NCBI GenBank assembly: GCA_031285525.1
Contig: JAITWB010000216.1
Span: 1-7,702, forward strand
Length of the DNA stretch: 7,702 bases
Reading direction: 5' to 3'
Source: Spirochaetaceae bacterium
Lineage (GTDB): Bacteria; Spirochaetota; Spirochaetia; Treponematales; Treponemataceae
Position 1 is the first letter of the stretch, and every line of letters starts with the position of its first letter. Under the pieces are notes generated by a model. The model was not told where the DNA came from and ran no database searches. It saw nothing but the letters and a program-made list of their open reading frames with translations. Below, piece by piece: positions 2,121-7,454 of the stretch. A program made the translations under genes and the position numbers.

Positions 2121-2137
2121 TAAGGGTGAGCGGAGAT

Positions 2138-3187
2138 ATGCTGATTAATAGCAATGAGTATTTTGAAATACTAAACAAGATAAAGAAACACATCCGTGAT
2201 GCTCAATACAGAGCTGTTCTTGGTGTAAATCAGGAGCAAATTGTGCTGTTTTGGAATATCGGGAAAATCATTATCGCCAATACTAAATATGGGGCAAAGT
2301 TTATTGATAACCTTGCAAGAGATATAAAAACAGAATTTCCAAATATGAAAGGTTATTCTGTTAGAAACCTGAAATATATGCGTAAATTCGCAGAGTTTTT
2401 CCCCGATGACTCAAAAGTGCAATCACTGCTTGCACTTTTGAGCTGGACTCATAATATAAGAATTATGGATGCTGCAAAAACGGCTCAACAATATGAATGG
2501 TATGCAAAACAAACCGTAGAGAACAGTTGGTCTGTTCGTGTTTTGGAATATCATATTGAAACAAAAGGATATGAACGGCAAGCATTGCCTGAAAAGAAAG
2601 CAAGTAATTATCAAAGACTATTGCCAAACCCGCAAAGTGACTTGGCTATTGAAACTTTAAAAAGTGCCTATGTGTTTGATTTTATAGAAAAACGAAAGGG
2701 AATCATCGAGCGGGAAATAGAAAACGAACTTGTAGCAAATATTGCCAAAACACTACTTGAACTTGGTACTGGTTTTGCTTTTGTGGGCAACCAATACCAT
2801 TTAGAGGTAAGCGATATAGATTATTATATCGATCTGTTGTTTTACAATACAAAACTCCGTTGTTATATTGTGATAGAGTTGAAAAATACAGCCTTCAAGC
2901 CTGAATATGCAGGAAAGCTCAATTTTTATCTTTCCGCTGTTGATGACATGCTCAAACATCCCCATGATAATCCTTCCATTGGCATTCTGCTTTGTAAAAC
3001 AAGAGACAAACTAACGGCGGAATATGCCTTGAAAGACATACACAAACCGATAGGAGTGAGCGAATACACATTAAGTGATTTTGTTCCCGCCGAATTTGCT
3101 GATACACTGCCAAGCGCCGAGGATATTGAAAGAAGAGTGTTGACGCAATTCGATATTGACGATTCTGAGGAAACAAACGGACCATGA
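2138..3187 (+). CDS. DUF1016 / YhcG-family PD-(D/E)XK nuclease-like protein (copy A)
   Basis: This is a putative DNA-acting protein of the YhcG/DUF1016 family; its biochemical target is not established. The N-terminal half matches the DUF1016 N-terminal domain: IKKHIRDAQYRAVLGVN, LFWNIGKIII, then KGYSVRNLKYMRKFAEFFP and the conserved LLSWTHN. The C-terminal half has the PD-(D/E)XK core, with DYYIDLLFYN supplying Asp and IVIELK supplying the E-x-K pair (Asp236, Glu251, Lys253 counted from GTG 2126), followed by GKLNFYLSAVDD and PSIGILLC. Length is about 349 aa, usual for the family. GTG 2126 is an alternative start adding four residues; ATG 2138 fits the usual N-terminus better, but neither start has an ideally spaced Shine-Dalgarno. 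The gene overlaps fic by 4 nt (ATGA). A 33-bp palindrome sits in the codons just before LSWTH. Family membership is secure; nuclease activity is inferred from intact motif residues. Confidence 0.88.
   Translation: MLINSNEYFEILNKIKKHIRDAQYRAVLGVNQEQIVLFWNIGKIIIANTKYGAKFIDNLARDIKTEFPNMKGYSVRNLKYMRKFAEFFPDDSKVQSLLALLSWTHNIRIMDAAKTAQQYEWYAKQTVENSWSVRVLEYHIETKGYERQALPEKKASNYQRLLPNPQSDLAIETLKSAYVFDFIEKRKGIIEREIENELVANIAKTLLELGTGFAFVGNQYHLEVSDIDYYIDLLFYNTKLRCYIVIELKNTAFKPEYAGKLNFYLSAVDDMLKHPHDNPSIGILLCKTRDKLTAEYALKDIHKPIGVSEYTLSDFVPAEFADTLPSAEDIERRVLTQFDIDDSEETNGP
2410..2442 (+). repeat. palindrome inside DUF1016-A, codon-phased
   Basis: The left arm CTCAAAAGTGCAA (2410-2422) and right arm TTGCACTTTTGAG (2430-2442) are perfect 13-bp inverted repeats with 7 nt between them. 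The inner C2424-G2428 and A2425-T2427 also pair, leaving T2423/C2429 as the only mismatch around the centre C2426. The centre is the first base of a CTG Leu codon in the peptide KVQSLLALLS, directly before LSWTH. The reverse strand read in the same phase would give KVQAVIALLS. Confidence 0.92.
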
Positions 3188-4233
3188 GCGACTTCGAAGA
3201 ATATATCAGACAAGGGGAGCCGGATAAAAAAGAAAAAGGGATTATCTGGCAAACCGCTATTGGATTACAGCAAGTTGACGGGCTGACCCCATCTGCATAT
3301 CTGATTGAAACAGCAAGGCAAAACATTGAAGGCGATATCACTTTTGACGAAGTGAAAAACCGTATCGATGCCTATTATAAAACACAATCGATCAGGCAGA
3401 ATGGTATAGAGGATGATCGAACAGAGGAAGCCGATAAGGTTTCTGCCAGAATAGCCGAGATCTTATCGGAAAAAACCTTTTCCTTCTCTCCTGCCGAATA
3501 TATCGGAATTCATCGTCGGCTTTTTAGTGGGATATATAAGTTTGCCGGTAAAATCAGAGATTACAACATCACAAAGCAGGAATGGATACTGGATGGTGAA
3601 ACAGTACTTTATTCGTCTTCATCACTGATAAAGGAAACGCTTGAATATGACTTTAGAGAAGAAAAGAATTTCAAATATAAAGGCTTAACAAGACAGGAAC
3701 AGGTAGAACATATTGCAGAATTTATCTCCGGCTTATGGCAAATTCACGCATTCGGAGAAGGAAATACGCGAACAACAGCGGTCTTTGCGATTAAGTACCT
3801 GCGGACATTTGGATTTACGGTTGAAAATGAACCCTTTGCCAATCATAGTTGGTATTTCCGCAATGCTTTGGTGAGATCCAATTACAGTGACTGGACGAAT
3901 AATATCCATGCAACACAAAAATATCTGCTCCGTTTCTTCGGCAATCTGCTTTTTAGTGAACAGAACGTACTAAGAAATAGAGAACTACATGTCAAATGGC
4001 CTTTTGTCACCGATAACGGGGGAAATGTCACCGATAGGGATTCAAGAATACTGGTATTGATACAGGAAAATACGCATATTTCCACTGCAAAAATGGCAGC
4101 GATTCTTTCTGTCAGTAAACGGACAATATTAAGAGATATTGAGAAATTAAAACAATCAGGGCAGCTATCTCGTGAAGGAGATGAAAAGACGGGAAGGTGG
4201 ATAATTGTTGTGGAGGGAGAAAAAAATGAATAA
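3184..4233 (+). CDS. Fic-domain nucleotidyltransferase with N-terminal VbhA-like antitoxin segment and C-terminal winged helix
   Basis: Fic enzymes usually transfer AMP from ATP to hydroxyl side chains of target proteins; VbhT/FicT-type toxins modify type II topoisomerases. The core motif here is HAFGEGNTR (188-196), matching HxFx(D/E)GNxR, so the catalytic His188, the Mg-binding Glu192 and the anion-binding Gly-Asn are present. The second arginine of the classical HPFxEGNGRxxR motif is replaced by Ala199. Residues 5-67 (EYIRQGEP, WQTAIGLQQVDGL, then LIETARQNIEGDITFDEV) resemble VbhA-type antitoxins, here fused N-terminally. At the place of the inhibitory S/TxxxEG there is LQQVDG. Residues 287-343 form a winged helix (TAKMAAILSVSKRTILRDIE), suggesting DNA binding and self-regulation. 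Length is 349 aa. It starts at ATG 3184, overlapping DUF1016-A by 4 nt, with GAGGA at 3167-3171 somewhat distant, and overlaps DUF1016-B by 8 nt. Confidence 0.88.
   Translation: MSDFEEYIRQGEPDKKEKGIIWQTAIGLQQVDGLTPSAYLIETARQNIEGDITFDEVKNRIDAYYKTQSIRQNGIEDDRTEEADKVSARIAEILSEKTFSFSPAEYIGIHRRLFSGIYKFAGKIRDYNITKQEWILDGETVLYSSSSLIKETLEYDFREEKNFKYKGLTRQEQVEHIAEFISGLWQIHAFGEGNTRTTAVFAIKYLRTFGFTVENEPFANHSWYFRNALVRSNYSDWTNNIHATQKYLLRFFGNLLFSEQNVLRNRELHVKWPFVTDNGGNVTDRDSRILVLIQENTHISTAKMAAILSVSKRTILRDIEKLKQSGQLSREGDEKTGRWIIVVEGEKNE
4005..4036 (+). repeat. short direct repeat in the Fic-winged helix linker
   Basis: TGTCACCGATA occurs at 4005-4015 and again at 4026-4036, with a 21-bp period that keeps the frame. 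It encodes the repeated peptide VTD in VTDNGGNVTDRD, between the Fic domain and the winged helix. It probably reflects a small in-frame linker duplication. Confidence 0.6.
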
Positions 4234-5365
4234 AATACAGAAATCAGCAACAGTACCGATAGCAGAAACGGGCAATTTTATCGTGCAATTAAAACAAATC
4301 ATACAAATTGCCCGGCAAAAAGCATATTCAGCTGTAAACTTTGCACAAATAGAGGCAAATTGGCTTATTGGCCAGCAAATTGTAGAGCAAGAGCAGCAAG
4401 GCAAAAAACGAGCCGAATACGGAAAACAAATTATAAAACTTGCTTCCGAAGAATTGACGAAGGAGTTTGGGAAAGGGTTTTCGGCTACGAATCTTAAAAA
4501 TTTCAAAGCTTTTTACGTAGCTTTCAGTGATTTACCAATAAGTCAGGCACTGCCTGACTTATTGGTAGAGAAAAAAAGTCATACAGTGCCTGACCAATTA
4601 AAACCAACCTTACCCTTGTTAAGTTGGTCTCATTATGAGCGTCTTTTAAGGGTAAAAGATGAAAAGGCAAGAAAATGGTACAGCCAAGAAGCGGTAAAAC
4701 AAATGTGGTCATATCGCACTCTGGATCGAAATATTGCAACCCTTTATTATCATAGAATGTTGTCTTCTCAAGAAACCGAACAGATTGAGCAGGAAATGAA
4801 GGTGAATACTGCAGCTTTTCAACAGGACACACTCGAATTTATCAAAAATCCTACGGTTTTGGAGTTTCTTGGGTTGTCTGCAAATAAAGGCTATACGGAA
4901 GGCGCATTGGAACAAGCAATCATAGACCAGATGCAGACATTTATACTCGAACTTGGTAAAGGTTTCGCTTTTGTTGCCCGTCAACAACTTATCCGCACCG
5001 AAACGCAAGATTTTTATATCGACTTGGTTTTTTACAACTATATGCTCAAATGTTTTGTGATTCTCGAACTTAAAACCAACAAAATAACTCACCAGGATAT
5101 TGGGCAGTTGGATATGTATGTGCGTATGTATGACGACTTAAAGAAACCCGCAGGAGATAACCCCACTATTGGTATTTTGCTTTGTACCGAAACAGATAAT
5201 ACTATTGCACGATATTCGGTTTTGAAAGAAAATAAACAACTTTTTGCAAGCAAATATATGCCCTATCTGCCTACCGAAGAAGAATTGAAGGCAGAAATAG
5301 AAAGGCAAAAAGAATTATTGGCAATGCGAAAGGAAGCAGACCAACAACAAAAGGAAACCCTATGA
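4226..5365 (+). CDS. DUF1016 / YhcG-family PD-(D/E)XK nuclease-like protein (copy B)
   Basis: This second YhcG/DUF1016 protein has 379 aa and is only moderately similar to copy A. The N-terminal domain reads ANWLIGQQIVEQEQQGKKRA, then KGFSATNLKNFKAFY and LLSWSHYERLLRV. The PD-(D/E)XK core is FYIDLVFYN with Asp266 and VILELK with Glu281 and Lys283, followed by DIGQLDMYVRMYDD and PTIGILLC. Residues 350-379 are a charged, probably helical tail (EEELKAEIERQKELL) that copy A lacks. ATG 4226 is chosen because GGAGGGAG (4212-4219) sits 6 nt upstream; an in-frame TTG at 4205 would only add seven residues from the Shine-Dalgarno region. The segment before LSWSH (about 102-131) is roughly 19 residues longer than in copy A and contains a perfect 35-bp palindrome plus a third half-site. 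The gene overlaps fic by 8 nt and uvrB by 4 nt. Nuclease activity is inferred. Confidence 0.88.
   Translation: MNKIQKSATVPIAETGNFIVQLKQIIQIARQKAYSAVNFAQIEANWLIGQQIVEQEQQGKKRAEYGKQIIKLASEELTKEFGKGFSATNLKNFKAFYVAFSDLPISQALPDLLVEKKSHTVPDQLKPTLPLLSWSHYERLLRVKDEKARKWYSQEAVKQMWSYRTLDRNIATLYYHRMLSSQETEQIEQEMKVNTAAFQQDTLEFIKNPTVLEFLGLSANKGYTEGALEQAIIDQMQTFILELGKGFAFVARQQLIRTETQDFYIDLVFYNYMLKCFVILELKTNKITHQDIGQLDMYVRMYDDLKKPAGDNPTIGILLCTETDNTIARYSVLKENKQLFASKYMPYLPTEEELKAEIERQKELLAMRKEADQQQKETL
4533..4567 (+). repeat. perfect 35-bp palindrome inside DUF1016-B, codon-phased
   Basis: Left arm TACCAATAAGTCAGGCA (4533-4549) and right arm TGCCTGACTTATTGGTA (4551-4567) are perfect 17-bp inverted repeats around the single centre base C4550. 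The centre is the first base of CTG in LPISQALPDLLV. The opposite strand read in the corresponding phase encodes LPISQAVPDLLV, a single residue different. Confidence 0.95.
4584..4594 (+). repeat. extra half-site of the DUF1016-B palindrome
   Basis: CAGTGCCTGAC here is the exact reverse complement of 4542-4552 in the palindrome and shares TGCCTGAC with its right arm. It encodes TVPD in HTVPDQLK, an echo of QALPDLL upstream. It makes a second possible inverted pairing across a 31-nt spacer. Confidence 0.8.
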
Positions 5366-7351: not shown

Positions 7352-7414
7352 GCATGAGAGCTTCGTATCACTCGATACTAACCTTTAGTGTCGAGTGATA
7401 CGAAGCTCGCGTGT
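7352..7414. repeat. long hairpin repeat downstream of uvrB
   Basis: The left arm at 7358-7381 (GAGCTTCGTATCACTCGA then TACTAA) and right arm at 7385-7408 form a 24-bp stem with one T7376-G7390 wobble and a 3-nt loop CCT. After one mismatch the pairing continues for 5 bp with wobbles (7352-7356 with 7410-7414). No T-tract follows, so it is a poor fit for an intrinsic terminator. It could protect the uvrB 3' end or be a REP-like or MITE-like palindrome. Confidence 0.9.
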
Positions 7415-7454
7415 CGAGGCACACTAAGCCTTAGTATCGAGCGATACGAGATAG
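7410..7454. repeat. decayed second hairpin sharing the same repeat unit
   Basis: CGTGTCG (7410-7416) pairs with CGATACG (7442-7448) including one G-T wobble. Inside, ACTAA (7423-7427) pairs with TTAGT (7431-7435) around the loop GCC, leaving an internal mismatched bulge. The unit TTAGTATCGAGCGATACGA (7431-7449) differs at two positions from 7385-7403 and matches the complement of 7363-7381 at 18 of 19 positions, so it is a further copy of the hairpin arm. Confidence 0.75.

Follow-up and report, generated by a model that had tools for sequence, protein, structure and literature searches.

Many genes of the DUF1016/YhcG family carry a palindrome inside their own coding sequence, and two of them, referred to here as genes A and B, are found in a 7,702-base contig of a Spirochaetaceae bacterium (the window, meaning this whole stretch). 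The palindrome is widespread in the family and its arms covary at the DNA level. A coupling between arm bases and residues of the encoded protein was found both in the genes from which the rules were drawn and in genes left out of that set. Elsewhere in the genomes searched, the palindrome types tested are absent. We propose, with a probability of about 0.8, that the N-terminal domain of these proteins is a ParB-like helix-turn-helix (HTH) domain whose dimer binds the palindrome within its own gene. The coupling strongly argues that the encoded protein would physically bind this site; that the proteins dimerise, and the functions considered below, are what we infer.

The palindrome in the window genes and in the family

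Palindromes A and B (Table 2) are codon-phased, as the first-pass annotation had reported, with C2426 and C4550 each opening a CTG codon (phase 0). Recomputation confirmed that distances 1, 2, 5, 6, 10, 12, 13 and 14 from the centre are the same in both, and that at distances 4, 7, 8, 9, 11, 15 and 16 both sides have changed with pairing kept. The sole asymmetry up to distance 16 is likewise the T/C at distance 3 of copy A. The two had also been placed at the same protein position; both do precede the LSW.H motif, but at unequal distances of 4 codons (A) and 23 codons (B). The second, imperfect copy in gene B was absent from the annotation. When synonymous codons were permuted 5,000 times in each gene, the observed score was never reached; it is 13 against a null maximum of 11 for A and 17 against 14 for B. 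The closest relatives of both genes, compared as proteins, have peptides with the same signature.

The codon-shuffle test proposed in that annotation was run on DUF1016 genes gathered from named contigs, viral contigs, species genomes and Escherichia coli. The main set comprises 204 non-redundant anchored genes from 237 open reading frames (ORFs; 27 redundant or short and 6 unanchored were dropped), where redundant means more than 60% of four-residue words in common, so that by our estimate pairs with an identity of very roughly 88% at most could remain. Each gene was scored by its best palindrome within 105 nt upstream of L(S/T/P)W.H, with no arm distances but 3-13 entering the score, and synonymous codons were permuted inside each gene to give the null. 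A score of at least 9 was observed in 97/204 genes compared with 0.75 expected; p<0.05 was reached by 145 genes and p<0.01 by 115. At a score of at least 8 there are 131 palindromes, 117 of them centred on a base, and in 112 of these 117 it is the first base of a codon. Exactly 4 codons separate 61 of the 112 from the motif. The same picture was seen in an initial pass over 171 genes (from 209 ORFs, with 28 unanchored, 1 containing ambiguous bases and 9 redundant dropped). In an analysis that placed every centre 4 codons before the motif, pairing lies above the synonymous control from d1 to d13 (d being the distance from the centre) and is back to control level at about d15.

The consensus frame is AATT-arm(d9-d3)-CRNTG-arm'-AATT with 7-bp arms. 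Among 196 elements selected for at least 6/7 pairs at d3-d9, 125 distinct left arms were found and every position from d3 to d9 shows all four pair types. A peptide trace of this pairing is present in 240 homologues, where Q-T-x-S (212) and Q-A-x-P (55) far exceed the mixed AS (16) and TP (11) forms (Fisher 8e-34), because ACA must pair with TGT and GCA with TGC. Mismatches at d3-d9 show no preference for wobble (G-U), with 15 of the G-T type against 27 of the A-C type. Furthermore, the pair next to the centre (d1), which was not used in the selection, covaries (A-T 97, G-C 40, G-T 30 and A-C 24), in genes of low and high third-position G+C (GC3) alike. The lack of a wobble preference and the covariation at d1 therefore favour double-stranded DNA over RNA.

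Tandem copies are spaced 8-36 codons apart. In the 25 genes listed (copies 14-47 codons from the motif) the arms are mostly common to the copies within one gene, with exceptions. The loop around palindrome B is predicted to be disordered. Some genomes hold 13-19 DUF1016_N matches each (G001 of the Fibromonadales, G866, G965 and G976), and in G001 both the helices and the arms vary.

Coupling between protein residues and arm bases

Outside the peptide encoded by the palindrome, the stretch that best predicts the arm is GFSxRNLxxMR (partial r 0.42 in 83 single-copy genes, with whole-protein distance controlled), and its coupling lies above all 500 permutations in each of four clusterings. The recognition helix would span residues 75-87 of P0121 in an AlphaFold2 model. 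Per-residue z values were obtained on 151 distinct helix-arm pairs by permutation within 20 clusters of related C-terminal halves; two other analyses used 146 and 157 such pairs (all from the 196 elements, after dropping those without a helix motif and duplicates). The highest z values belong to a second element, LSW[x]Hx[R], in which x is coupled with d3 (z 20) and the third residue after x with d4 (z 13.3). Helix position 7 with d8 (z 11.9) and position 4 with d7 (z 11.1) rank next. Tests with z over 5 number 10/105 in the helix, 9/210 from the motif onward and 7/280 N-terminal to the helix.

The individual pairings are given in Table 1. The one between Arg at helix position 4 and guanine at d7 is of a kind known as a classical contact. 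When relatives were left out, correct base calls among the 157 pairs were 93 at d9 (59 for the commonest base), 116 at d8 (84), 111 at d7 (76), 121 at d6 (102), 132 at d4 (18) and 126 at d3 (61).

For the left-out test the rules were fixed beforehand and 398 and 296 genomes of two phyla were searched, partly overlapping the earlier genomes. Of 111 new ORFs, 72 have at most 60% of four-residue words in common with the first set, and these contain 62 unique elements. A score of at least 9 was found in 23/72 genes compared with 0.18 expected, and all 38 palindromes with a score of at least 8 are base-centred in phase 0. The test was repeated at 40, 25 and 15% shared words and with relatives collapsed; 33 of the 62 elements are left at 25% and 15 at 15%, where the counts given are those after relatives were collapsed. 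Misassigned rows were retained, namely the helix motif of L399, L401 and L402 and chance palindromes in L318 and L326.

Table 1. Residue-base pairings in the 157 unique pairs and in the left-out elements. Frequencies of the same base with other residues are given in brackets; residue 6 is counted after the L of LSW.
Residue and base	157 unique pairs	Left-out (62)	At most 25% shared words (33)	15% shared words (15), counts after collapsing relatives
Helix 4 R, d7 G	55/57	18/19 (4/43)	9/10 (2/23)	3/3 (1/9)
Helix 4 A, K, N or Q, d7 C	16/16	13/15 (12/47)	7/8 (4/25)	few cases
Helix 7 Y, d8 T	28/28	2/2 (35/60), few cases		few cases
Helix 7 E, d8 C	11/12	4/5 (0/57)	no cases	few cases
Helix 2 D, d6 G	19/21	5/5 (16/57)	2/2 (10/31)	few cases
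Helix 8 R, d5 C	12/14	18/19 (2/43)	11/12 (1/21)	5/6 (1/6)
LSWxH S, d3 A	56/63	19/26 (1/36)	9/10 (1/23)	4/5 (1/7)
LSWxH G, d3 C	22/22	11/11 (14/51)	4/4 (5/29)	few cases
LSWxH Y, d3 G	8/8	2/2 (14/60), few cases		few cases
Residue 6 R, d4 C	56/60	12/13 (2/49)	7/8 (0/25)	0/1 (0/10)
Residue 6 K, d4 T	6/7	1/3 (2/59), few cases		few cases

Both window genes are included in the set behind these pairings. In gene A, helix positions 4, 7 and 8 are Arg, Lys and Tyr, x is Thr and residue 6 is Ile. Its arm agrees with the residue-base tables at d4-d7 and d9, and at the asymmetric d3 one half-site presents T and the other G, the bases used by genes with Thr (16/51 and 30/51). The corresponding residues of gene B are Thr, Lys and Asn, with Ser in LSWSH and Glu as residue 6; its arm has favoured bases at d4-d8 and unfavoured ones at d9 (A) and d3 (G).

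We suggest that two protein elements read each half-site: the recognition helix would contact d5-d9 with its N-end, GFSx[R]NLx[Y], and a later helix would contact d3 and d4 with its start, LSW[x]Hx[R]. The palindrome is encoded in the codons between both putative reading elements. As the site lies between the codons of the two elements, protein specificity and DNA site would be inherited or exchanged as one block. The idea in the first-pass annotation that a selected palindrome serves as the binding site of the DUF1016 protein itself thus gains strong support from the coupling of the arm bases to two putative DNA-contacting elements.

Escherichia coli yhcG, copies outside the gene and rival explanations

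In yhcG of an MG1655 derivative three tandem palindromes are present, at codons 106, 119 and 132, compared with one in the O157:H7 record. A second allele class (L253, L263 and L264) has two copies, where the first arm changes from CGCCAG to GTGCAG by three paired changes, and the preceding helix in the same block also differs between the classes (GFSAKNLRQMR and GFSTRNLWQFK). In 14 E. coli alleles, variable sites per 60 columns amount to 19-23 in the helix-palindrome block against 1-11 elsewhere. This block suggests that site and specificity stay linked through horizontal transfer or recombination. A palindrome with the arm CTGCAGA was observed about 30 bp past the yhcG stop codon in all five loci inspected that have the gene. 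Two strains that lack yhcG (L304 and L305) contain a solitary perfect 27-bp palindrome in the nanQ-gltD spacer (about 2501-2528), which is the same as yhcG copy 1 of several other strains, for example L251 and L254. In four further strains (L265-L268) a truncated yhcG adjoins insertion sequence (IS) or transposase genes, partly near the palindrome array; yhcG is mentioned as a neighbour of IS5 in excerpts of PMC1174868.

Copies were also sought beyond the gene. The Pseudomonas-type palindrome ATTCGTGACGCACTGCGTCACGAAT, with up to 3 mismatches, was found in 9/17 genomes, at a single place each and inside a DUF1016_N match; none of the 17 genomes showed dispersed extragenic copies of this type outside DUF1016 genes, such as those of repetitive extragenic palindromes (REPs). 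The 13-base core CAGACANTGTCTG occurs at 7 places in 24 genomes. Five of these fall within DUF1016 genes or a gene fragment, and the other two do not extend beyond the core and are taken as chance matches. Apart from these two, neither sequence was found in unrelated genes in the manner of the Rickettsia elements or of palindromic amphipathic repeat coding elements (PARCELs). A dispersed repeat was rejected for the palindromes tested.

Kin copies occur at 0.72 per kb in the gene, compared with 0.16-0.19 in intergenic DNA near the gene and 0.05 far from it. A promoter operator was rejected as a general rule, and with such mild intergenic enrichment the in-gene copy is taken as the main one. Among boxed non-coding copies within 300 bp of a gene with a readable helix, 8/17 agree with the predicted arm in at least 4/7 bases, including three that agree in 6 or 7; for boxed copies more than 600 bp away the figure is 3/32, at 4 or 5 bases and none higher. 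Of the three that fit best, the copy at +138 bp of L050, whose gene has no in-gene copy, fits at 6/7 bases, that at -41 bp of L167 fits at 6/7 and has the same arm (CTCTACA) as the in-gene palindrome, and that at +30 bp of E. coli L253 fits at 7/7. In-gene copies with a 4-nt centre fit the code at 4 or more of 7 bases in 8/15 cases. At L050 (G567:C48), cognate-type palindromes at 4071 and 6769, 138 bp and about 2.8 kb past the gene, flank a neighbouring open frame. A search with a gap of 0-2, which misses the usual in-gene spacing, gave two intergenic copies in one Succinivibrio genome.

Several observations weigh against the proposal of a ParB-like dimer bound to a site in its own gene. The palindrome is not universal, since 59/204 genes miss p<0.05, 62/204 have no in-gene element by the boxed criterion and 30/72 left-out genes reach p<0.01. 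Some parts of the code are loose, with helix position 4 Thr (T 10, C 10, G 8, A 3) and helix position 7 Lys (G 25, T 21, C 2, A 1) spread over all four bases, d5 predicted hardly better than by its commonest base (132 against 128 of 157), and gene B having G at d3 although Ser mostly pairs with A. Residues N-terminal to the helix couple to d8 with z up to 8.6, a column 252 residues downstream reaches a partial r of 0.40, and one cluster holds 66/151 rows; the coupling to d8 upstream of the helix and to far columns indicates that shared ancestry has not been fully removed. In E. coli, the arms of MG1655 copies 2 and 3 and of L253 copy 2 are unlike copy 1, and class-1 strains, with a helix that calls for C at d7, have the downstream CTGCAGA site as well. 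The 119 unfiltered candidates within 500 bp fit at 2.1-2.2/7 bases compared with 1.8-1.9 by chance. Lastly, the scores for a ParB fold fall short of the value that the program regards as distinctive in helical models.

Three explanations that dispense with such binding all appear very improbable to us. An RNA or single-stranded DNA hairpin, acting in the mRNA through stability, pausing or RNA-binding autoregulation, would account for the stem-like covariation and for centres that are at times unpaired (e.g. 5-9 nt between arms). It is disfavoured by the mismatch types and by the covariation beside the centre, as a d1 pair cannot form in a hairpin, and the protein code also fits some of the non-coding and some of the 4-nt-spaced in-gene versions. 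As to the possible fold-back or inversion substrate considered in the first-pass annotation, the mismatches show no G-U preference. That annotation also offered a mobile palindromic element, and a selfish element of the REP, Rickettsia or PARCEL kind colonising DUF1016 genes would agree with the tandem copies, their in-frame position and the predicted disorder of the gene B loop. We rate it as no more probable than the hairpin, and the mobile element is disfavoured by the confinement of the Pseudomonas-type palindrome to one place in each of the genomes that have it (9/17), by the location of the CAGACANTGTCTG matches and by arms that depend on the protein and have no common sequence. Least probable of all is that the DNA has no function and the pattern arises from codon bias and coevolution, at the protein level, of the palindrome-coded peptide with neighbouring helices. 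The arms do code for residues near the helices, and the T..S/A..P covariation is predicted by either view. However, synonymous permutation preserves the protein yet abolishes the palindrome, the covarying d1 pair involves a third codon position, and tandem copies far from the motif mostly have the same arm. Amino-acid coevolution alone is further disfavoured by the non-coding copies that fit the code, though the unfiltered candidates taken together are near chance.

If the encoded protein does bind the palindrome, promoter-independent autoregulation is the function that we favour, at slightly below even odds. A protein bound about 300 bp inside its own gene would block or silence transcription, and this would keep the nuclease safe wherever the mobile gene lands. 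A same-arm copy just upstream of the gene was seen once (L167). The main rival to autoregulation, which we regard as unlikely, takes the bound site not for an operator but for a target that the PDDEXK domain cleaves, in self-targeting that would promote gene conversion or homing or would exclude sister elements of the same allele. The presence of that domain is consistent with cleavage, as are the perfect palindrome retained in the nanQ-gltD spacer of strains without yhcG, the variation in palindrome block, copy number (1-3) and adjacent helix between E. coli alleles that are otherwise far more alike, and the four strains with a truncated yhcG beside IS or transposase genes. On the other hand, the gene would be cut by its own product in its own cell. 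As a rule, an allele that encodes a homing nuclease lacks the target, and here a target-like palindrome occurs in E. coli strains without yhcG but also within yhcG. A more tentative idea than autoregulation is that these are self-addressed genes, in which one short stretch both encodes part of the DNA-binding domain and serves as its cognate target, the two evolving and recombining as an exchangeable specificity cassette at which the nuclease acts. It would cut, silence or exclude copies that bear the same address, and each allele would in this way have a private identity tag.

Genomic setting, known systems and significance

The gene order in the window is pseudouridine synthase, HtrA-type protease, DUF1016/YhcG A, Fic-HTH, DUF1016/YhcG B and uvrB. 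Both DUF1016 proteins exceed the curated cut-offs of 32.8 bits for PF17761 (134.7 in A and 143.2 in B) and 32.5 bits for PF06250 (207.4 and 177.4). The G+C content of the three central genes (2126-5365) is 37-40% compared with 53% in the flanks; this trio therefore has an acquired look, consistent with a gain between htrA and uvrB. The neighbouring Fic-HTH protein has PDC-S72 as its best PADLOC match (E 4e-137). The first two codons of element 2 in gene A are shared with the outer end of palindrome A. Imperfect inverted repeats with 29-nt arms (AGCTTCGTATCACTCGATACTAA and kin) lie 3' of uvrB at 7353-7449 and are dissimilar to the DUF1016 palindromes.

Table 2. Features of the DUF1016-Fic-DUF1016 region in window coordinates.
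Feature	Position	Strand	Details
DUF1016/YhcG gene A, 353 amino acids	2126..3187	+	DUF1016_N PF17761 E 3.1e-39; YhcG_C PDDEXK PF06250 E 1.4e-61
Putative DNA-reading element 1, gene A, GYSVRNLKYMRKFAEF, recognition-helix N-end, Arg at position 4	2351..2398	+	residue-arm coupling
Palindrome A, centred on C2426 of gene A, with left arm GTGCAAT (d9-d3)	2410..2442	.	arms 2410-2425/2427-2442, 94% complementary
Putative DNA-reading element 2, gene A, LSWTHNIR, x = Thr, residue 6 = Ile	2438..2461	+	x-d3 and residue 6-d4 coupling
Fic/DOC protein with HTH, between both DUF1016 genes	3184..4233	+	Fic E 1.8e-11
DUF1016/YhcG gene B, 379 amino acids	4226..5365	+	DUF1016_N E 7.2e-42; YhcG_C E 2.4e-52
Putative DNA-reading element 1, gene B, GFSATNLKNFKAFYVA, Thr at position 4	4475..4522	+	residue-arm coupling
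Palindrome B, centred on C4550 of gene B, with left arm AGTCAGG (d9-d3), 17/17 paired	4533..4567	.	arms 4533-4549/4551-4567, 100% complementary
Second, imperfect palindrome copy in gene B, AAGTCATACAGTGCCTGACCAATT	4573..4599 (about)	.	repeat, 81% complementary to first copy
Putative DNA-reading element 2, gene B, LSWSHYER, x = Ser, residue 6 = Glu	4619..4642	+	residue-arm coupling

Profile and fold comparisons give a weak pointer to a ParB-type DNA-binding domain in the DUF1016 N-domain. Pfam comparison of the two window proteins (E≤0.001) and of ten homologues (E≤1) gave no match to the ParBc (CTP-binding) family, and no solved relative was found by sequence, where one weak match to a ribosomal protein was obtained (E 0.89). 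The Foldseek matches listed mostly concern the nuclease half. In Bacillus subtilis a parS site lies inside the parB gene; this arrangement is not known to hold throughout a gene family with the site co-evolving. Compared with ParB and Noc and their sites parS and NBS (Noc-binding site), as described in excerpts of PMC7383237, DUF1016 proteins have a PDDEXK nuclease domain and no ParB CTPase family, and their site varies from gene to gene. With regard to the two-fold binding of ParB and Noc, the DUF1016 site is symmetric and two protein elements appear to be coupled to each half-site.

REPs and their RAYT genes resemble the DUF1016 case in that short palindromes differing between genomes are tied to a nuclease-type gene. 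REPs are present in high copies per genome (excerpts of PMC3733652), whereas the DUF1016 site tested is single and lies within coding sequence. The Rickettsia palindromic elements and PARCELs, according to excerpts of PMC4316617 and PMC2996958, are in-frame coding palindromes, partly in tandem, as in DUF1016 genes. They form recognisable sequence families across many genes, unlike the DUF1016 palindromes, which belong to one gene family, have a fixed site between two putative reading elements and have arms that follow the host protein. In 2005 a PD-(D/E)XK domain was predicted in YhcG (COG4804, pfam06250), and the excerpts of that study (PMC1189080) describe an N-terminal domain of about 200 amino acids without a confident match in a protein without function, with the palindromes unmentioned there. 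No earlier account of an in-gene DUF1016 palindrome or operator was found in the literature searched, which covers few subscription papers.

DUF1016/YhcG proteins, including YhcG of laboratory E. coli, number in the thousands (at least 7,999 relatives per search) and have so far been without an assigned function. Self-addressing, if true, would be a kind of self-recognition for which we know of no parallel among restriction, partition or homing systems. Many DUF1016 genes spell out the DNA that their product is predicted to target, with amino acids at six positions predicting bases of the site. It is rare for the same DNA to be constrained simultaneously by the protein that it encodes and by its own symmetry, and the family may provide a natural collection of proteins matched to their sites in which to follow the evolution of DNA-binding specificity in a ParB-like domain.

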